From a virus, in the IMG/VR virus record IMGVR_UViG_3300023179_000189, positions 1-43,860 of that record: 43,860 nt of DNA, one strand, 5' to 3'. The notes beneath the pieces were generated by a model. The model made no database searches. It had not been told where the DNA came from and saw nothing but the letters and a program-made list of their open reading frames with translations. The translations under genes and the position numbers were made by a program. Shown here piece after piece: positions 3,270 to 36,319 of the stretch. Numbering within the stretch: the stretch's first letter is position 1; the number at the start of each line of letters is the position of its first letter.

Positions 3270-5522
3270 ATGTATTGTAAACGAAACGCAAAAATAGACT
3301 TGCTCACTCAAGACGCTGCCCAATATTTAGATTTTAAAACTATCCTAGAAACCGATAATCTCGCTGAGATATTGTCCGAAGAGATGCGCGCGTCTATTGC
3401 TAACAAAGTCAATACACGTTACAATACAGATTTACAATCAAGAAGCGAGAAGCAAAAGCAGCTTCAACAAATCATCCGCTATACGCTTTCACAATCAGAA
3501 AAGCGTTCATTTCCTTTTGAAGGCTCCTCAAACGTTATCTTTCCTTTAATCTCTACTGCTTGCGTTGAATTCGCGGCTAAATGTTACCCTGAAATTTTCA
3601 AAGATGGAAACATTGTAAAAGCTAAAGTTATTGGCAATGATGATGGCGAAGTAATGAAAGATATTGAAGGCAATGAGATGCGTAATGATGATGGCTCTAT
3701 TGCGACACTCGATGAAACGGGCTTGCCAGCTATTCAAAACGTAGGCGCTAAACTTAAGCGCGGACAAAGAATCGCAACTGTTATGAATTATCAGTTGAAT
3801 GAAGAGATTGAAGGTTTTGAGCAAGATATGGACGCTTTGTTCAGTGCTCTTGGCTCGCTTGGCACGATGTTTAAGAAAAATTACTTTGACGAACAAGAAC
3901 AAAAAATTTGCTCTCACTTAGTTTATCCTGATAAATTAATTATAAACGACTTTGCTCCTTCTTTTGAAGCCCCTGTTACACATATTATTGAAAAATACCC
4001 GCAAGACGTAGTTTCTTCAATTCGTTCTGGTGATTATATTGATTTTGATTTTGATCCAGATGCCGTAGATTCATCAACTGACACTAATAGTCTTGATAAA
4101 AATGACGAGAAAAGAACTTCTGACGAGGCGCAAGCTGGTTTAATTATATTCTTAGAGCAGCACACAAGATTTGATTTAGATAATGATGGTTATGCCGAGC
4201 CTTATATTGCGGTAATTCACAAAGCTTCAAACAAACTTGTAAAATTAATTAAAAGATTTCACGAAAAAGACGTTAAGAAAAACAAAAAAGGTGAAATTCA
4301 AAGCATCAAAGCAATTAATTTCTTTGTTCGCTATATCTTTACACCTTCTCCTGATGGCTCGTTTTATGGTGTTGGCTTAGGGCATTTATTATTCAACATC
4401 AACTCAGCAATCAATAGCTCGATTAACCAATTAACAGACGCTGGAACGCTTCAAAATACTGGAGGTGGCTTCATTTCTAAGTCTCTTAATATGGCTGGCG
4501 GTATGAAACCTTTTCGTCCTGCTGAATGGAAGATGGTTGAAAGCTTTGGTGGAAATATTCGTGAGGCGATTGTCCCTTTACCAGTTCCTGAGCCTTCACA
4601 AACGCTATTTGTATTGATGCAATTCTTGGTCAATGCAGGAAAAGAGCTTGGTTCTTTGAGAGATGTTCTGACTGGTGAAAATGCGGGCAACATTGCCGCC
4701 ACTACTTATATGGGAATGGCTGAACAAGGACAAAAACAATTTAAGTCCGTATTTATGCGGATTTATAATTCTTTGCGTCAAGAAATAAACATATTCTACG
4801 AGTTAAATTTAGAATATTTATCCCAAAAGAAATATGCTGAAATTTTAGACATTAAGCTTTTTGAAAGCCCAAGTGTTAAAGAAGATTTTTCTTTAAAAGG
4901 CTATGACATTGTACCAGTTGCAAATCCTGAAAATGTTATTTCTATGCAAAAGTTTGCCAAAGCTCAATTCTTAATGGGTTTTATTGGTTCTCCTATGGTC
5001 GATCAATTATTGCTCCACAAAACAGTGTTTGAAACTGCTGGAATTGAAAACTTTGACAAATTTATCATTAATCCACAACCGCAACCTGATCCAGTAATGG
5101 AAGTTGCAATGACGCAAGAAGAAACTAAGCGCATGGAAATTCAAACCAAAACGCAGATTGAAACTGCAAAATTAGAATTTGAGCAAATTAAATTCCAAAA
5201 AGATGCCGCTAAATCAGACTCAGAAATATTAGTAAACTATGCTCAAGCAGGTAAATTAGTTAAAGACACTGAGACGGCAGACACAAAAGATAAATTAGAC
5301 GTTTTGGACAACATGATTGATGCCGAATCAAGACAAAACGAAACTAATAATCGCAAAGAAGAAATGGAATTTAAGGCAGCAGTAGAGCTGGAAAAAATAA
5401 AAGACCGCAAAGAAGAAAGAAAATTTAAAGCGGCAGTAGTGCTAGGAAAACTAGAGAATCAGCAAGTTAAAATCCCTACAACCGAAAAAGAAAAGGAGGA
5501 TGAAACCTCTGCTGATATTTAA
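3270..5522 (+). CDS. portal protein
   Basis: 750 residues, close to the size of P22 portal (about 725). It forms the dodecameric ring through which DNA enters and leaves the head. Family-like stretches include FPFEGSSNVIFPLI near residue 80, an ALGSLGTMFKKNYFDE segment, and PSPDGSFYGVGLGHLL followed by IREAIVPLPVPEPS. The C-terminal ~130 residues are a charged coiled-coil-like tail rich in E and K, as in long P22-type portals. The ATG is fused to the recurrent motif TTGAGTAAATG. An upstream TTGACA (3225-3230) lacks a convincing -10. Confidence 0.92.
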   Translation: MYCKRNAKIDLLTQDAAQYLDFKTILETDNLAEILSEEMRASIANKVNTRYNTDLQSRSEKQKQLQQIIRYTLSQSEKRSFPFEGSSNVIFPLISTACVEFAAKCYPEIFKDGNIVKAKVIGNDDGEVMKDIEGNEMRNDDGSIATLDETGLPAIQNVGAKLKRGQRIATVMNYQLNEEIEGFEQDMDALFSALGSLGTMFKKNYFDEQEQKICSHLVYPDKLIINDFAPSFEAPVTHIIEKYPQDVVSSIRSGDYIDFDFDPDAVDSSTDTNSLDKNDEKRTSDEAQAGLIIFLEQHTRFDLDNDGYAEPYIAVIHKASNKLVKLIKRFHEKDVKKNKKGEIQSIKAINFFVRYIFTPSPDGSFYGVGLGHLLFNINSAINSSINQLTDAGTLQNTGGGFISKSLNMAGGMKPFRPAEWKMVESFGGNIREAIVPLPVPEPSQTLFVLMQFLVNAGKELGSLRDVLTGENAGNIAATTYMGMAEQGQKQFKSVFMRIYNSLRQEINIFYELNLEYLSQKKYAEILDIKLFESPSVKEDFSLKGYDIVPVANPENVISMQKFAKAQFLMGFIGSPMVDQLLLHKTVFETAGIENFDKFIINPQPQPDPVMEVAMTQEETKRMEIQTKTQIETAKLEFEQIKFQKDAAKSDSEILVNYAQAGKLVKDTETADTKDKLDVLDNMIDAESRQNETNNRKEEMEFKAAVELEKIKDRKEERKFKAAVVLGKLENQQVKIPTTEKEKEDETSADI

Positions 5523-5545
5523 TAATAACAACCTTGAGTAAGAAC

Positions 5546-5818
5546 ATGAGTCAAATCGAAATGAAAGAGTTAAAGGATTGGTTAAACGATCCAGCAGCGT
5601 TAAAATTCAAAAGAATCTTAACAAATTCACGCGGCAAGTTATTAAACAACATGGCGCACAATTACATAGGACAGCAAGGCAATTTTAATAAAGACCTTAT
5701 ATTGAGCGCCCTAGGCGGTTGTGAAGCATTAGAACAAATTTCTAACTATCTCGGTACAAAAGACGAGAACACGATAGAAGAACTGCTGAATTTATTTCAT
5801 GGAGGTTTGAGTGAGTAA
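5546..5818 (+). CDS. hypothetical protein, 90 aa
   Basis: A small, mostly helical protein between portal and GroES; the function is not recognised. I chose the ATG at 5546 because TTGAG lies about 7 nt upstream. A TTG at 5534 in the same frame would add four residues (MSKN). The 3' end overlaps the GTG start of the GroES-like gene by 8 bp and contains its GGAGG ribosome-binding site, indicating coupled translation. Confidence 0.75.
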   Translation: MSQIEMKELKDWLNDPAALKFKRILTNSRGKLLNNMAHNYIGQQGNFNKDLILSALGGCEALEQISNYLGTKDENTIEELLNLFHGGLSE

Positions 5819-6158: not shown

Positions 6159-7123
6159 TTGACCAATCAACAACAATAGATGATTCAAAACTTTATGGAT
6201 CAAAAGAAGCTCTTTCTAATCCCATCTTTGAGGATATGGAAGAGTCAGAATCAGAAAGTCTTGAAGTAGAGCAACCAGTCCAACAAAACCAATTTGTTGA
6301 CAGAAACACAGAGGAAAAAGCTTTTTATGCTTCCCTGTCTGATACTGAAAAGGACGCTTGGGATAGAGGTTGGAGAACTGGCAAATTCTTTAAAGGAAAA
6401 TTTAAAGATGGAACTCCTAAGCCTCACAAATCAGCAGAAGAGTTTTTATCTATTCAAGAAAGAGAAACTCCTATTCTGAATGAAAGAAATAGAAAGTTAG
6501 CTTCTGAAAAAACCGCTCTTGAAAGAGAAATGAGTGAACTTCGCAAGCAAATGGACGTTATGCTTAATGTTCAAAAAATTGCTTACGAAGAAAAGACTCA
6601 AAATAAATTTCAGTCTTTAGAAGAAGCTGAAGAGCAAGCTATTTTAGAAGGCGATGTTTCTAAAGTGAGAGCTATCCAAAAGCAACGCTTAGAACTTGAG
6701 AAAAATAAAATTTCTTTTGAAGAGCCTGAAATTGAGCAACCTAGAAACCAAATTAGTCGTGATGATAAATTTGTAATTGATAATTGGACTGCGGATAACA
6801 CTTGGTTTCATGAAGACAAGGTTCTACAGGCTTCTGCAACGGCATATTTTGGCACTTTATCCGAGAGAATCCCTTTGGAAGAAAGGTTAGAATTGGTAAG
6901 CGATGAAATCAAAAGTCGTTTTAGTGATAAATTAGGTTCTTCTAAAGCTCCTAGAGTTGAATCAGGAGTAAGGGGAGTTCAAAACACTAGAAAACAAAAT
7001 TCTTATAACGATTTGCCAGCAGAAATTAGAAAAAGCTGCGAGTTTTTTGCTAAAAGATACAATTTCGACAAAGAGAAAATTGCTAAAATGCAACAAACAG
7101 CCATTAAAGAATATTTTAAATAA
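6149..7123 (+). CDS. scaffolding protein
   Basis: A 324-residue acidic protein with a strongly charged, coiled-coil middle (roughly residues 95-175, with heptads such as ALEREMSELRKQMDVM) and a disordered-looking N-terminus. Its position between portal and capsid genes, and the WDRGWRTGKFFKG then PHKSAEEFLS pattern, match scaffold proteins of podoviruses. It overlaps the GroES-like gene by 10 bp. No protease motif is seen. The call rests on composition, position and motif pattern rather than on a catalytic signature. Confidence 0.75.
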   Translation: MPVIDQSTTIDDSKLYGSKEALSNPIFEDMEESESESLEVEQPVQQNQFVDRNTEEKAFYASLSDTEKDAWDRGWRTGKFFKGKFKDGTPKPHKSAEEFLSIQERETPILNERNRKLASEKTALEREMSELRKQMDVMLNVQKIAYEEKTQNKFQSLEEAEEQAILEGDVSKVRAIQKQRLELEKNKISFEEPEIEQPRNQISRDDKFVIDNWTADNTWFHEDKVLQASATAYFGTLSERIPLEERLELVSDEIKSRFSDKLGSSKAPRVESGVRGVQNTRKQNSYNDLPAEIRKSCEFFAKRYNFDKEKIAKMQQTAIKEYFK

Positions 7124-7139
7124 AAATTGAGGAAAAAAC

Positions 7140-7646
7140 ATGAAAGAAGCAAATAGAAATCCAAAAACACATTCTCTTGAAAGATTAGATATTCAAGATT
7201 CAAGAGCGGCAAGACCTACTAACAGAGACGTTGAAGTGGTAAAATTGCCAGATGGAAAAGAATTTATTAGAACTCCTCGTACTTCTTTAAAAAGAAGCGG
7301 TGCAGTTTCTGACTTGCCTAAAAAAGCAGGTTTTAAACGCAGATGGGTTTCTTCTAACATTCCAAATCGCATTCAAAATTTGATTGATTTGGGATACAGA
7401 CCAGCTACCGATGAAAACGGCATTGAAATTGCTCCAATAAGAGGTGGTACAAATAAACAAGGCGAAACATTTATGAGATACGCTTTGGAAATTTCTGAGG
7501 AAATGGATGCTCAAATTGAGAGAGACAATAAACAAAGAATAGAAGACCAAAACAATGAAGCATTGGAAAAAATGAAAAATGTGGATTTGGGAAGCGGTTC
7601 TTCAACTTATGTGAAACAAGATTCACAAAAATTCATAACAAGATAA
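7140..7646 (+). CDS. hypothetical head-region protein, 168 aa
   Basis: A 168-residue, charged protein of unknown function placed just before the head structural genes. It starts at an ATG preceded by TTGAGGAAAAAAC, a plausible ribosome-binding site. The middle carries a KKAGFKRRWVSSNIPNRI segment, basic and aromatic. Similar small proteins lie between scaffold and capsid genes in other podoviruses, but I cannot assign a role. Confidence 0.75.
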   Translation: MKEANRNPKTHSLERLDIQDSRAARPTNRDVEVVKLPDGKEFIRTPRTSLKRSGAVSDLPKKAGFKRRWVSSNIPNRIQNLIDLGYRPATDENGIEIAPIRGGTNKQGETFMRYALEISEEMDAQIERDNKQRIEDQNNEALEKMKNVDLGSGSSTYVKQDSQKFITR

Positions 7647-7661
7647 AATTAAAATTAAACT

Positions 7662-8273
7662 ATGGCTAACGCTAATACTCCTGCTGGCTTAACGCCGCTT
7701 AAGAACTCTCCTTTCGTGGAGATTCCTAAAAACTCTTACTACATTCCTGCAAGCTATGCAACTGCATTGTTTATCGGCGACCCTGTAGTAAAAACTGGTA
7801 CTTCTAACACTGCTAACGTTCTTACAAGTGGCAAGTTATATCCTGCTGGTTCTCTTCCTGAAATCAATAAAGCAACTGCTGGCGATGCTAATGCTATCAC
7901 TGGTGTTATTATTGGTTTTGAAGCTATCCCAAGCAATTTAACTTTAAATTATAACCCAGCTTCAACTGAAAGAGTTGCCATTGTTGCTGACAGCCCATTC
8001 CAAGAATTTTTAGTTCAAGAAGAATCTGCTGGAACTCCTTTGGCTGTTACTTCTGTTGGTTTGAACGCCAACGTGGTTTATGCTGAATCTGGTTCAACTG
8101 CAACTGGTTTGTCTGGTGCTGAATTGGATACATCTACTCCTGCAACCGATGCAACTTACCAATTAAAAATCAAACGTCTTCTTGACGCTCCTAAAAATGC
8201 TATTGGTCAGCACGCTAAATGGGTTGTTATTATCAACAATCACACAGAAGCCAACGGCAAAGCTGGTATCTAA
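7662..8273 (+). CDS. probable capsid decoration or head structural protein
   Basis: A 203-residue, beta-rich, Ala/Thr/Ser-rich protein. The pattern AGLTPLKN then YATALFIGDPV, followed by GVIIGFEAIP, resembles a widespread phage head-protein family. In that family a short N-terminus is followed by an S/A-x-A-T-A-L-F/Y-x-G-D-P-V segment. The gene immediately precedes the major capsid gene. Whether it decorates the shell or is an internal head protein cannot be told from sequence. Confidence 0.65.
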   Translation: MANANTPAGLTPLKNSPFVEIPKNSYYIPASYATALFIGDPVVKTGTSNTANVLTSGKLYPAGSLPEINKATAGDANAITGVIIGFEAIPSNLTLNYNPASTERVAIVADSPFQEFLVQEESAGTPLAVTSVGLNANVVYAESGSTATGLSGAELDTSTPATDATYQLKIKRLLDAPKNAIGQHAKWVVIINNHTEANGKAGI

Positions 8274-8299
8274 TTATTAATTAAAAATTTATTTAAAAA

Positions 8300-9205
8300 A
8301 TGTCTATTATTGTAACAGGAACTATTCCTACTTCATTAAAGCCCGGTATTACTACTTATTGGGGTTCTTACACAGAAGACGATCTTTTAGCCGCTAAATT
8401 GGTTAAAATGTCAACTACTGACGAGCAATTCGACAGAGACGTATTGGTAAGCCCTTTTGGTCTTTTCAATCCTAAAAACGAAGGTGCTGGCGTTTCTTAT
8501 GATTCAATGACTCAAGGATACGTTTCAACCTACAACCAAAGAACTCGCGCTTTGGGTTTCCAAGTTTCTTGGGAAGCTCGTAAGTTTAGTAAGTATCTTG
8601 ATGTTGTTGCTAAAGGTAACGAATATCTTTCTTCTTCTCTTCGTGAGACTAAAGAAGTTGACGTTGCGAATCTTTTCAACAATGGCTTTGATTCAAACTA
8701 CACTTTCGGCGATGGCAAGAAATTCTTTGCTACCGATCACCCAAGCCGTGCTGGTACTTTCTCTAACACTCTAGCAACTCCACAAGATCTTTGCGAAGAA
8801 GCTTTAGAAGAATTATGCACTCAAATCAAAGAAACAAACAACGACAGAGGAATCAAAGCAAGAATTAAACCAATTCTTCTTCAAGTTCCTCCTGCTTTGA
8901 TGTTTGAAGCTACTCGTATTTTAGAGTCTCAACTTCGTGTTAATACCGCAAATAACGATATTAATGCTATGAAATACATGGGATTGTTCTCTGAAGGCGT
9001 TGTTGTAAATCCTCATTTAACTTCAGATGATGCTTACTTCATTAAAACTGACGCTCCTGAAGGTGCTAAAATGATTACCGCTGTTCAAGGCGAATTTAGC
9101 AACGATGGCGCTTTCGAGTCTGGTGACGAGAAATACAAAATGATGACCTCTTACGCTATCGGCGTGACTGATCCTCGTGGTTACTTCGCTTCTGAAGGCG
9201 TTTAA
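8300..9205 (+). CDS. major capsid protein (HK97 fold)
   Basis: 301 residues. Motifs typical of HK97-fold/gpT-like capsid proteins appear in order: LFNNGFDSNYTFGDGKKFF then ATDHPSRAGTFSNTL, then KPILLQVPPALMFEA, RILESQLRV, NDINAMKY, and a C-terminal YAIGVTDPRGYFASE. Codon use is GC-shifted and pyrimidine-ending relative to the ejection genes, consistent with high expression. A hairpin follows the stop (9235-9253). The GroES-like protein upstream is probably its folding partner. Confidence 0.88.
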   Translation: MSIIVTGTIPTSLKPGITTYWGSYTEDDLLAAKLVKMSTTDEQFDRDVLVSPFGLFNPKNEGAGVSYDSMTQGYVSTYNQRTRALGFQVSWEARKFSKYLDVVAKGNEYLSSSLRETKEVDVANLFNNGFDSNYTFGDGKKFFATDHPSRAGTFSNTLATPQDLCEEALEELCTQIKETNNDRGIKARIKPILLQVPPALMFEATRILESQLRVNTANNDINAMKYMGLFSEGVVVNPHLTSDDAYFIKTDAPEGAKMITAVQGEFSNDGAFESGDEKYKMMTSYAIGVTDPRGYFASEGV

Positions 9206-11441: not shown

Positions 11442-12002
11442 TTGATAATAGAAGAAACTCAAATAGACATGGTCGAGCCATCAACAATTTCAGATGAAAA
11501 TTTAGTAGAAAAAGTTGAAGATAGCAATTGCTTCAATTTGCCTGTAATGGCAACCAAATATAATAAAGATGTTTCGGTTTTATCTAATATACAAAAAATA
11601 GAATTAGCAGAATATTACCTCAAAAACTATTTTGAAGGCACAGAGCAAGCTGCAAAAGAACTCCCACTAGAGCATTTTATCTGCAATAACACATATACTC
11701 GCCAAATAACCCTGCCTAAAGATATAATCCTAACTGGCAAGGTTCACAATTTCGATCACACTAGCATTTTGTCCAAAGGTGAAGTAACGATTATGACTGA
11801 CGAAGGAGTCACTCGCATAAAAGCCCCTGCAACATGGATTTCAAAAGCAGGTACAAAGCGCTTAATATATGTCCACGAAGAGACTATATGGTCGACTATT
11901 CATCGTAGCGAAAACACACTTGTCGAAGACCTAGAAAAAGAAATGGTGCATGAAAGCGATTTGTCTTGGATTAATAAAGAAATTTTAATAGGAGATAAAT
12001 AA
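11442..12002 (+). CDS. cupin-like phage protein, 186 aa
   Basis: The central part (TLPKDIILTGKVHNFDHTSI, then SKGEVTIMTDEGV, KAPATWISKAGTKRLIYVHE) reads as a small beta-barrel cupin. This type is common in podovirus genomes near the ejection genes, and its role there is unknown. The frame opens at TTG 11442; an ATG at 11469 would remove nine residues, and the start is not settled. Its TAA overlaps the next ATG by one base (TAATG). Confidence 0.65.
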   Translation: MIIEETQIDMVEPSTISDENLVEKVEDSNCFNLPVMATKYNKDVSVLSNIQKIELAEYYLKNYFEGTEQAAKELPLEHFICNNTYTRQITLPKDIILTGKVHNFDHTSILSKGEVTIMTDEGVTRIKAPATWISKAGTKRLIYVHEETIWSTIHRSENTLVEDLEKEMVHESDLSWINKEILIGDK

Positions 12003-12736
12003 TGACTTACGCAGCAGTAGCAATAGGTGGCGCAGCATTAGTTGGTGGCGGCATGGTGACTCAAGGATATTACGCGAATAAATCATCAAAAAGAGCAGCA
12101 AAGGCACAAGGAAACGCAATGAATGCTTACCTTGCAGAAATGCGTAGATCAAAACAAGCAGCTATTGGTTATCAACGCCCTTACGAAGAGGCAGGAAGAA
12201 GTGGATTAAGTTTATTGCAACAATATCTTACTGGCGATCCTGCGGCAACACAAAATCGCCTAGAACAATCACCAGGCTATCAATTCCGATTAAATCAAGG
12301 TCAAAATTCAATTCAGAATCTATTAGCTTCAAAAGGCGGTCTAAAATCAGGCGCGGCAATGAAAGCTCTTGAAGAATATGCTCAAGGTACAGCCTCGCAA
12401 GAATTTGGCAATCAAGTTGGATATTTACAAGGGCTTGCTGGAATTGGACAAAATGCATCAATAGCAATGGGTAATTATGAAATTCAAGCTGGCGCTAATA
12501 TGGCTAATGCTTCTCAGCAAGGAGTCCTAGGGCAAGGAATGGCTATGGCTAATAGAGATGCTCAAATGGGAAATATTATTGGTGGCGGAATGAGTCAAAT
12601 TGGAGGAACTGCGCTAGGTATGGCAATGTTAGGCATGGGTTCACAAAATCAACAAAATACTTATCAGCCGAATGGAGCTTCAACAGGGGCTTATGACAAT
12701 ACTAGATTAAACGCAACGTATCCATCACTTAGATAA
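12002..12736 (+). CDS. DNA ejection protein (P22 gp7-like position)
   Basis: 244 residues. The N-terminal hydrophobic glycine-rich segment AVAIGGAALVGGGMVTQGYY is followed by RRSKQAAIGYQRPYEEAG and a conserved-looking SPGYQFRLNQGQNSIQN, LASKGGLKSGAAMKAL, QEFGNQVGYLQGLAGIGQ block. This block is characteristic of DNA transfer/ejection proteins of P22-like and Bcep22-like phages. Such proteins leave the head with the DNA and help build a channel across the envelope. It is the first of three consecutive ejection-type genes. Confidence 0.8.
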   Translation: MTYAAVAIGGAALVGGGMVTQGYYANKSSKRAAKAQGNAMNAYLAEMRRSKQAAIGYQRPYEEAGRSGLSLLQQYLTGDPAATQNRLEQSPGYQFRLNQGQNSIQNLLASKGGLKSGAAMKALEEYAQGTASQEFGNQVGYLQGLAGIGQNASIAMGNYEIQAGANMANASQQGVLGQGMAMANRDAQMGNIIGGGMSQIGGTALGMAMLGMGSQNQQNTYQPNGASTGAYDNTRLNATYPSLR

Positions 12737-27835: not shown

Positions 27836-28567
27836 TTAGGCCTCGCTCTTGTTAGTATTTTCTAATTTTTCAGCCTCTGCCGCAGCTCTCATGCTTTCAA
27901 GAGCTTCTTCGTTGTTTTTAAAGAACTCGTTCATCCCAACTTTAATTGATGAGCTTTCTCTATAAATCAAAGATGCTGCTAAAGCTGGTCCGAATCTTTT
28001 TTCTAAATCAGTCCCTTCTTTTCCAGCCAAGAAAATCACCCAACCAGCTCTGCAATGAGTTGTTTCGCAAGTATGCCACGTTGACATATTCAAAGCTCCA
28101 TCTTGAGCAGTTGCCGCTTTCAAAACTTTTTGATGAATATTTTCGATTTTAGGAATCTCAAATCTGTCTTGATTTTCAGAATCTTTTTTGTCGCGATATT
28201 TATAACAATTAGAGCAGTAAGAGCAGTCAGAGCAGTCAGAGCAGCCAGAGCAGTAAGAGCAGTAAGAGCAGTCAGAGCAGTCAGAGCAGCCAGAGCAGTA
28301 AGAGCATTTAGAGCAGTCAGAGCAGTTAAAGCAGTAAGAGCAGTTAGAGCATTTAGAGCAGTTAGAGCATTTAGAGCAGTAAGAGCAGTCAGAGCAGTTA
28401 GAGCAGTAAGAGCAGTTAGAGCAGTAAGAGCAGTTTTCTAAACTCCGCAACGCTTTCAAAGCTTTTTCTTCCGATCCCCAATATTGAACAGAACAGCGAT
28501 TGTTATCTTCATCGTAACACCATTTAACGCCATCAACTTCTTTCCAAATAATATTTTTTTCTGTCAT
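27836..28567 (-). CDS. Cys-Ser-x repeat protein with CETTHCRAGW domain, 243 aa
   Basis: Start at ATG 28567, a GTG 11 codons upstream being the alternative. Residues ~1-45 include WKEVDGVKWCYDEDNNRCSV. Then come 25 tandem C-S-x (once C-F-x) tripeptides, with x mostly Y, N, D, K or G. The C-terminal domain contains STWHTCETTHCRAGWVIFLA, a motif I have seen in phage proteins of unknown function with and without such repeats. The regular Cys every third residue could bind metal, as zinc or iron-sulfur sites do, but no known fold matches. No signal peptide. Confidence 0.75.
   Translation of the reverse strand: MTEKNIIWKEVDGVKWCYDEDNNRCSVQYWGSEEKALKALRSLENCSYCSNCSYCSNCSDCSYCSKCSNCSKCSNCSYCFNCSDCSKCSYCSGCSDCSDCSYCSYCSGCSDCSDCSYCSNCYKYRDKKDSENQDRFEIPKIENIHQKVLKAATAQDGALNMSTWHTCETTHCRAGWVIFLAGKEGTDLEKRFGPALAASLIYRESSSIKVGMNEFFKNNEEALESMRAAAEAEKLENTNKSEA
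28208..28432 (-). repeat. 25 x 9-bp tandem repeat encoding Cys-Ser-x
   Basis: 225 bp made of 25 units of 9 bp (minus strand TGC-TCT-NNN). The first two codons are nearly invariant and the third varies. Units are in frame with gene 27836-28567. The pattern fits growth by slippage under selection for the first two codons. Copy number is likely to vary between relatives. Confidence 0.9.
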
Positions 28568-28608
28568 AAAATTTCCATTTTTTGAATTAATAATTACCAC
28601 TTTAAGCT

Positions 28609-28683
28609 AAATAGCTTTTCACGCCAGACTGCGACACCTATACGATGCCCCAAATTCCTGCAATCTGGCGTGAGAAACTATTT
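28609..28683 (-). ncRNA. 20-bp stem-loop directly behind tRNA-Ser
   Basis: Arms 28609-28628 and 28664-28683 pair over 20 positions with one mismatch and one G-T wobble, enclosing a 35-nt loop. The core is a perfect TCACGCCAGA / TCTGGCGTGA. On the minus strand it begins within the CCA end of tRNA-Ser(GCT). The loop shares CTGCGACAC (plus strand) with that tRNA. No T run follows, so it may be a processing or stability element, or a small RNA. Confidence 0.5.
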
Positions 28684-28771
28684 GGCGGAAGGTAGAGGAT
28701 TCGAACCCCTGCGACACTTAACTATCCACTGATTAGCAATCAGCTCCAATAGACCACTCTGGCAACCTTCC
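28683..28771 (-). tRNA. tRNA-Ser(GCT)
   Basis: Cloverleaf with acceptor GGAAGGT/ACCTTCC, anticodon loop with GCT flanked by the stem CTGAT/ATCAG, a long variable arm as in serine tRNAs, T arm GGGGTTCGAATCC, G discriminator and encoded CCA. Reads AGC/AGT. Confidence 0.92.
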
Positions 28772-28778
28772 CTATAAA

Positions 28779-28868
28779 TGGCGGATGGGGTGAGACTCGA
28801 ACTCACGAGACCCCGAAAGGTCTTGGCGGTTTTCAAGACCGCTGCAATAGCCGCTATGCGACCCATCC
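28779..28868 (-). tRNA. tRNA-Ser(TGA)
   Basis: Acceptor GGATGGG/CCCATCC, anticodon loop CTTGAAA (anticodon TGA), a long variable arm (AGACC-TTTC-GGGGTCT region), T arm GTGAGTTCGAGTCTCAC, G discriminator and encoded CCA. It lies 7 bp from tRNA-Ser(GCT) in the same orientation. Reads TCA and probably other TCN codons. Confidence 0.92.
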
Positions 28869-35359: not shown

Positions 35360-36319
35360 TTAAAATAAAGTTTCTTGTCTAATATGTTCTTGATAACGCT
35401 GCTCTGCTTGCTTGAAATAATCTTCATCAAGTTCGCAGCCAATAAATTGCCTCTTTGTGTTATGACTCGCAATTCTGTCCGTTCCGCTTCCTACAAACGG
35501 ACTAAAAACCAAATCGCCTTCCTTTGTGGTGGTCATGATTAACTTTTCAATAACTGCTCCATCTTTCGTGGTGGGGTGGAAGCTAGATTTAAGCTTTGCA
35601 TCAATCACATCAGTTAGTCTAAATTGATTATTGAAAGGTCGCCGTAAATCTTCGTATTCTTTGCGTAAATCTTCGTATTTTTTGCGTAAATATTCGTATT
35701 TTTTGCGTAAATATTCGTTGTTCAGATATTCCCTAATGAATAAATATTTTTCTTCTGAAATAATACTATCTCCCTCAAACCATCTATTGACCATTGCAGA
35801 ATCCATTTTCAAAATATTAACCACAAATTTTCTAATTTCTGTAATAGTTCCAAAATGTCTCAGTAACTCGCTTTGTAAATACTCCGCAAAAGGATTGGGC
35901 ATAATCTTTTTAATCATCTCAAGCCCTGTCTTATTCTCTCCTTTGTCGTAGAATAGGATTCTTTCAGTAACTGGTGCAAAACTGTTAAAATTGTCAATTC
36001 CCATCATTCCCATTGCTTGGCTTTTTCTATAAACAATACTATTCAACAAATTAAACTTTTTGTCAAATTCGACCTGTAAATAAGCAATATTCTTTTCATC
36101 ACCAAAAACAAACAAAGAGCCATTGTCTGCCATAATCCTTTCAAACTCATCTCTTAAAAGGATGTGCCAATCAATCCACTCTTTCATTGTTTTAAAAGCC
36201 CAGTCAAACCCTCCGCAAATTTTGAAATAAGGGCCATCACAAATGATTAAATTGATTGATCCAGTTTCAATTCGCTTCATTGTCTCAAAGACATCTTCGT
36301 TGTAAAATTCGCTTCTCAT
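35360..36319 (-). CDS. DNA methyltransferase with heptad repeats
   Basis: 319 residues. Catalytic motif DGPY at 28-31 and SAM-binding FSPFVGSGTDR at 272-282 with FIGCELDEDYF give the beta-class order. Between them, residues 203-228 hold four copies of a seven-residue unit (EYLRKKY, EYLRKKY, EDLRKEY, EDLRRPF) encoded by 21-bp repeats. Such YEDLR-type repeats recur in phage methylases and probably lengthen a helical spacer near the target-recognition region. The ATG overlaps the YopX-like gene stop (ATGA-type overlap). Confidence 0.87.
   Translation of the reverse strand: MRSEFYNEDVFETMKRIETGSINLIICDGPYFKICGGFDWAFKTMKEWIDWHILLRDEFERIMADNGSLFVFGDEKNIAYLQVEFDKKFNLLNSIVYRKSQAMGMMGIDNFNSFAPVTERILFYDKGENKTGLEMIKKIMPNPFAEYLQSELLRHFGTITEIRKFVVNILKMDSAMVNRWFEGDSIISEEKYLFIREYLNNEYLRKKYEYLRKKYEDLRKEYEDLRRPFNNQFRLTDVIDAKLKSSFHPTTKDGAVIEKLIMTTTKEGDLVFSPFVGSGTDRIASHNTKRQFIGCELDEDYFKQAEQRYQEHIRQETLF
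35643..35720 (-). repeat. 21-bp tandem repeats in the methyltransferase gene
   Basis: Three full 21-bp units (35643-35663, 35664-35684, 35685-35705) and a 15-bp partial unit differ at only a few positions. They keep the reading frame and add one heptad each. Confidence 0.9.

Follow-up and report, generated by a model that had tools for sequence, protein, structure and literature searches.

A strict Cys-Ser-x repeat in phage proteins as a probable new rod type built on a cysteine core

A virus record of 43,860 bases (the whole stretch of DNA analyzed here, hereafter the window) encodes a protein with 25 tandem Cys-Ser-x units, an array that we consider a probable new type of cysteine-cored rod. 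We propose, at a probability of roughly one in two, that the array forms a thin beta-solenoid in which cysteines would make up the entire core and a rapidly reshuffled polar surface would serve as a binding rod. The proposal starts from direct observations (the array itself, its strict conservation, its replacement by other repeats, the pattern among unit variants and the gene context), and the main reason for considering the array a solenoid-type rod is that two unrelated C-terminal domains (heads) swap Cys arrays for known solenoids. The original prediction had called a coil conceivable, and a coil with inward-pointing cysteines now gains support from these swaps with beta-solenoids and from a low-confidence AF2 model.

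In the translation of an open frame at 27836-28600 (minus strand, 254 residues), 25 uninterrupted 9-bp units occupy 28208-28432 and are followed in step by a closing 26th cysteine (28205-28207, likewise on the minus strand). The original prediction of 25 Cys-Ser-x units thus holds to the exact coordinates, with Ser as the middle residue in 24 units and Phe in one, and its description of the codons as a fixed TGC-TCT applies to nearly all units, the exceptions being a single TGT beside 25 TGC and a single TTT beside 24 TCT. The third-position codons are TAC (8), GAC (6), AAC (5), AAA (3), GGC (2), and AAT (1). TRF delimits the array at 28211-28434 (period 9, 24.9 copies, score 294) and also reports a 45-bp higher-order period (5.0 copies, 92% match). 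As the cysteine pattern is kept by relatives in other phages, we do not consider it a product of chance.

The protein, 243 residues long when counted from the ATG at 28565-28567 (minus strand; a likely start, which we chose), would consist of three parts, i.e., a cap, a rod, and a helical head (Table 1). AF2 models the cap with pLDDT values of 82-95 per ten-residue block up to residue 50, and a similar cap is present in all 56 other rows of a 57-row alignment of cap and array. Across the linker pLDDT climbs from 41 to 75 to 98. The predicted CETTHCRAGW domain is borne out as a THCRAGW domain that follows the array in the same frame; this head of ca. 106 residues carries WHTCETTHCRAGW, is modeled mostly at pLDDT 90-98 with helices at residues 144-152, 173-192, 194-205, 212-216, and 219-242, and matches the phrog_31265 profile (E 3e-22, residues 143-249 of the 254-residue frame).

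Table 1 Parts of the array protein in the window
Feature	Position	Strand	Basis
N-terminal cap, 45 residues, short strands and a helix, leading directly into the array	28433..28567	-	AF2
Array, 25 Cys-Ser-x units and a closing Cys	28205..28432	-	translation, TRF, codon count
Charged linker	28157..28204	-	sequence; AF2 pLDDT
Helical C-terminal domain (head) with invariant W-H-x-C and H-C-R-A-G-W	27839..28156	-	AF2, 23-row alignment, phrog_31265

Conservation of the cysteines is nearly absolute. Among 101 distinct reading frames carrying either of the two heads, 2,810 of 2,816 in-step positions are Cys (the six exceptions being one Phe, two Ala, two Ser, and one Leu), and the frame is kept from the first to the last cysteine in 100 of the 101 arrays, breaks being counted inside arrays and not at their ends; the remaining array (L055) slips once. 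Frameshifted repeats in most relatives, which the original prediction had named as a sign of neutral slippage, are therefore not what we see. Even in arrays with a diverged middle residue, Cys occupies 248 of 251 in-step positions. The number of units, which the original prediction proposed to compare, ranges from 6 to 59 among the 64 in-step arrays with the THCRAGW head and differs even between close relatives: two arrays whose heads are 95% alike have 59 and at least 26 units, and further pairs have 35 and 6 (heads 80% alike), 27 and 23 (86%), and 21 and 41 (83%). Three close pairs have equal numbers, and in one pair (L143/L152) one array is cut. In a near relative of the window (L165) the cap region is ca. 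92% identical and the first array units are ordered differently, the sequence breaking off inside the array. Many contigs end within the Cys array (e.g., L004, L009, L016, L017, L018, L023, L165), probably because the repeat breaks assembly, and array lengths there are lower bounds.

The repeats that precede the THCRAGW head are exchanged among relatives, which we collected by motif-based scans of IMG/VR with the C-terminal stretch (45 loci, with near-duplicates within L010-L012, L037-L038, and L044-L046) and of GTDB genomes (35 loci). The head lies behind Cys arrays at 27 of the viral and 17 of the genome loci (among the latter, L060 is cut by a contig end and L064 has only four cysteines) and behind pentapeptide repeats at 12 and 15 loci, respectively. 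Matches to Pfam PF00805 and PF00132 confirm the pentapeptide and hexapeptide repeats ahead of it, the hexapeptide type being a single case (L024). A GCTGLTSLAGMGSVGG repeat occupies this place in a near-identical trio (L044-L046), an LPxGLxVGG-type repeat in L070, and Ala/Trp repeats, which need not be a beta-solenoid, in L082; three loci (L007, L042, L077) are cut or almost without repeat. Absence of the repeats from relatives, the other sign of slippage named in the original prediction, does occur in part (a Cys array is missing at 18 of the 45 viral loci and at 18 of the 35 genome loci), with other repeats present instead. Within the annotated phage collection the head occurs in a single record, Flavobacterium phage FL-1, together with a Cys array, and the sole plasmid record with the head is a pentapeptide protein. 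In the FL-1 deposition (KY421186.2, L001:2648-3352) the array is given in another frame (Ala-Pro-x) and the head, which is interrupted by a frame change, as a separate gene. A pentapeptide-type relative is encoded twice, as identical proteins ca. 37 kb apart on one contig, in Xanthomonas sp. NCPPB 1128 (L071 and L072).

DNA-pattern scans for the array, irrespective of the THCRAGW head, returned at least 164 loci with at least 165 reading frames, of which at least 47 have this head, at least 22 are cut, and at least 96 are neither. Many of these 96, with (CSG)n or (CSC)n repeats, resemble unrelated low-complexity genes read in a wrong frame and were discarded on visual inspection; about two dozen, also judged by eye, share the cap type and end otherwise. 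A second head, IGSR...CGCF, which is unrelated to the first, lies behind Cys arrays in at least 10 of the pattern-scan frames and in more from a further set, and some Cys arrays end in a short tail or in nothing. This second head also lies behind hexapeptide repeats (Ruminococcus phage phiRM10 gp34, Bacteroides BF766P1_00032), degenerate repeats (Paenibacillus Pd_22F), and a short pentapeptide stretch (Listeria LWP01). The statement of the original prediction that the array matches no known beta-helices thus needs revision, given that it occupies the place of beta-helices in sister proteins, and we postulate that the rod is a functional stand-in for the pentapeptide and hexapeptide beta-solenoids that sister phages carry on the same head. 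According to record titles, Cys arrays occur in viral contigs and genomes of Alphaproteobacteria, Betaproteobacteria, Bacteroidota, Acidobacteriota, and Patescibacteria. One viral contig carries at least 10 Cys-array genes in ca. 10 kb (L235:1426-11711, minus strand), with diverged arrays and kept cysteines. There, Cys-array proteins and unrelated small proteins share a short C-terminal tail (e.g., DRKLELEL, RRLELDL, DRLLEPDL) that looks, from its sequence, like a sorting or processing tag; it ends the frames at 5367-5660, 7089-7427, 8070-8303, and 11708-12235, among others, as well as Cys-array genes, and a comparable tail is found on L206, L208, L233, L244, and L247.

A given array almost always uses the same Cys wobble base and the same Ser codon, whereas between arrays the codons differ (TGC or TGT; TCT, TCG, TCC, TCA, AGT, or AGC), and the use of different Ser codon boxes and Cys wobble bases indicates that the protein is what is kept. 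For counts of unit variants we dropped the 119 of 230 rows without a recognized cap, arrays of fewer than 12 units, and identical arrays. Across 97 arrays with 2,635 units, the nine bases of the unit have entropies of 0, 0, 0.15, 0.39, 0.54, 0.42, 1.15, 0.88, and 0.20 bits, the first two values being zero by construction as only unbroken Cys runs were entered. The x codons follow the pattern NRY (pyrimidine-ending in 640 of 649, purine in the middle in 629 of 649). In the same 97 arrays, single-base steps between unit variants, which in related arrays are not fully independent events, comprise 21 synonymous changes where 87.5 are expected and 246 non-synonymous changes at position x where 101.7 are expected (transition weight 2, stops excluded, 88 multi-base steps set aside). 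The 23 pentapeptide arrays with the THCRAGW head behave likewise, with 5 synonymous steps against 35.8 expected and 113 non-synonymous steps at surface codons against 53.9, codons 2, 4, and 5 of the pentapeptide having 52, 30, and 31 changes against 19.1, 17.6, and 17.2 expected. Cysteine and pentapeptide repeats alike thus hold their core codons, silent bases included, and vary outside. Fast amplification from few founder units, together with selection for varied outer residues, would explain this pattern, and codon-use or mutation bias may contribute.

Structure modeling is consistent with a coil, at low confidence. When AF2 was given a gapped 25-protein alignment, the cap and the head came out well folded and the array had no structure (pLDDT 29-41). 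A second run with 57 nearly ungapped rows of similar length (126 columns) placed bridges with a three-residue spacing (E--E--E--) between residue 47 and approximately residue 107, at the low array pLDDT of 40-68 (53-68 over most of the array, 40-48 at its end). Foldseek found no significant match in the PDB for the first whole-protein model, for which the best hit in BFVD has an E of 0.0029 (A0A1P8VWG3, a 74-residue protein, over 68 columns) and VIA returned one match (Z 2.1). With the second model Foldseek likewise returned nothing significant, the best hit (E 1.0) being the Tenebrio antifreeze protein, and VIA returned 16 PDB entries with Z of 2.0-3.5, none significant, most of which are, judging by their titles, beta-helix proteins. 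The titles include cyclase-associated protein, RP2, tubulin cofactor C, polysaccharide enzymes, epimerases, a tailspike, and again the Tenebrio antifreeze protein, against which the low-confidence array model scores Z 3.5 (75 residues aligned, rmsd 4.1). The latter is also the best PDB sequence match, with E values of 0.011 (whole protein), 0.0011 (array), and 0.0005 (profile), which is no proof of kinship since the bias (33 bits) exceeds the score (22). In this alignment the array cysteines are paired with C, A, C, S, C, A, C, S in the Tenebrio coil, i.e., the small residues of its 12-residue turn. In the published structure these small, every-third residues point inwards. One account of this protein (PMC4838330) has the X of its T-X-T motif pointing into the structure and counts eight disulfides in 8.4 kDa. 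Along 94 arrays the x residues have no common structural period, only lag 2 stood out for the middle residue (z 3.0 among 24 lags), and unit numbers have no preference for multiples of 4 (19, 15, 15, and 15 of the 64 arrays by remainder), so that no coil length is visible.

Taken as a solenoid, the rod would be built from units of three residues in which every third residue, the cysteine, points inwards while Ser and x face outwards or sit at corners, and the cap would nucleate the first coil. Gain and loss of 9-bp units would change rod length and outer residues quickly while the Cys core is held. As a varied surface on a constant core fits binding, the rod would most likely be a long adjustable binding surface and the head a constant working or docking part.

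Two rival explanations concern the origin of the variation, and both are disfavored. The array could be the product of neutral slippage, a 9-bp repeat that expands and contracts while the protein is indifferent; the fast change in unit number (as in the pairs with 59 and with 35 units) and the 45-bp block period within the window array are in keeping with this, yet we consider it very improbable, given that Cys and frame are maintained in nearly all arrays, that Ser is maintained through both codon boxes, TCN and AGY, and that synonymous changes are fourfold too few. A diversity-generating retroelement could instead vary the x codons by targeted mutation, as might be suspected from variation that is largely limited to bases 7-8 of the unit and from the NRY codons. 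However, a reverse transcriptase (PF00078) was found in none of the 19 array-bearing records searched, the window included, some of which may be fragments, and we hardly give this source any credence.

The other rivals concern what the cysteines do. A flexible or metal-ordered CxxC chain could bind zinc, iron-sulfur, or copper and act as a metal or redox sink, in effect a phage metallothionein that head and cap only put in place. The near-absolute cysteines and the CxxC spacing suit such a sink, and AF2, being blind to metals, would give the array low confidence without them, but on the same heads the rod is replaced by cysteine-free solenoid repeats, the strong variation at x would be superfluous, and the window protein has no match to a metallothionein or zinc-finger model, which makes this reading unlikely. 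An improbable alternative is a polyproline-II bundle with three residues per turn and all cysteines on one side. It would account for the exact three-residue period and has a precedent in springtail antifreeze proteins, whose polyproline-II bundles have Gly at every third residue (PMC10235112). Such a bundle would require several short helices and loops, whereas 100 of the 101 arrays run unbroken in step; moreover, Pro is rare in the arrays and AF2 draws beta bridges, albeit at low confidence. For the cysteine-core solenoid itself there are hints that the thiol matters, since Ala and Ser almost never occur at the core although a small-residue core, such as that of the antifreeze coil, tolerates them, and near-absolute Cys exceeds the apparent need for packing, so that thiol chemistry (metal, redox) may count. 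As for the metal-rich or disulfide-ladder coil of the original prediction, the cysteines may bind metal, form disulfides, or stay as plain reduced thiols. By the same token, the stacked thiol ladders of a solenoid could enclose an unbroken string of metal ions or iron-sulfur units, i.e., a metal-cored protein wire of adjustable length with a reshuffled surface, an idea that we regard as a long shot.

Pfam and NCBIfam match the window protein with no family, in accord with the original claim that the array matches neither known metallothioneins nor zinc fingers; PADLOC has no match for the four proteins tested, this one included; and PHROG 15341 (cap and array) and PHROG 31265 (head) are both without assigned function or structure. 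No description of such repeats was found in the open-licence literature of PubMed Central, and we propose to regard the array as a repeat of the solenoid type whose very short unit is previously undescribed and whose core is unusual. The window protein is a match neither to the pentapeptide repeat (PF00805, A(D/N)LxX, score over 20.2) nor to the hexapeptide repeat (PF00132, [LIV]-G-x4, score over 27). Pentapeptide proteins (e.g., L008) share with it the head, a frozen core codon, and varied outer codons, but have a unit of five residues with an Ala and Leu core instead of three residues with a Cys core. The hexapeptide left-handed beta-helix (L024, phiRM10 gp34) is found before the same two heads and, unlike the array, has a unit of six residues with an aliphatic core position and no cysteine. 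The Tenebrio molitor antifreeze protein (PDB 1ezg, 1l1i) resembles the array in that each third position of its coil is Cys, Ser, or Ala. The coil of this family is a 12-residue TCTxSxxCxxAx, and the protein is secreted and disulfide-bonded with Cys only at every sixth residue; the array, by contrast, has a period of 3, Cys at all third positions, and no Thr-Cys-Thr face. With metallothioneins the array shares its richness in cysteine (about one third of its residues); it differs from them in its long stretch of CxxC spacing only, its many Tyr, and its folded partner domains.

To our knowledge, a three-residue unit with an all-Cys core would be the shortest such solenoid unit, and the array is widespread, yet given a function by none of the four profile libraries searched. 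Judging by the swaps on two heads, different solenoids serve phages as a single interchangeable component, so that what solenoid proteins do in phage early regions becomes open to experiment, and should the thiols bind metal or act in redox, the rod would represent a new kind of metalloprotein.

The window encodes a portal protein, a DnaB helicase, a Sak annealing protein (SSAP_Sak), two N6/N4 methylases, and a Holliday-junction resolvase, and the array gene lies within a minus-strand run of DNA-metabolism genes (SSAP_Sak, DnaB, DNA methylases, Holliday resolvase). As its same-strand neighbors are replication and recombination genes, it is likely expressed early, and the protein would be made together with their products early in infection. 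Among 108 neighbor proteins scanned around relatives (a chosen subset of 265), recombination genes are frequent (YqaJ 5, ERF 4, RecT 3), and a few neighbors are solenoid proteins too (YdcK-type beta-solenoid 2, bactofilin 2, pentapeptide 1). Directly upstream of the array gene, which has 35 Ser codons, the window carries two tRNA-Ser genes (anticodons gct and tga, 28683-28771 and 28779-28868, minus strand). That serine tRNAs travel with the array gene is not borne out, as tRNA-Ser is present in none of the loci of 51 relatives, and the adjacency in the window may thus be a coincidence. Elsewhere in the window, TRF reports a 21-bp tandem repeat at 35643-35718 (3.6 copies, 96% match).
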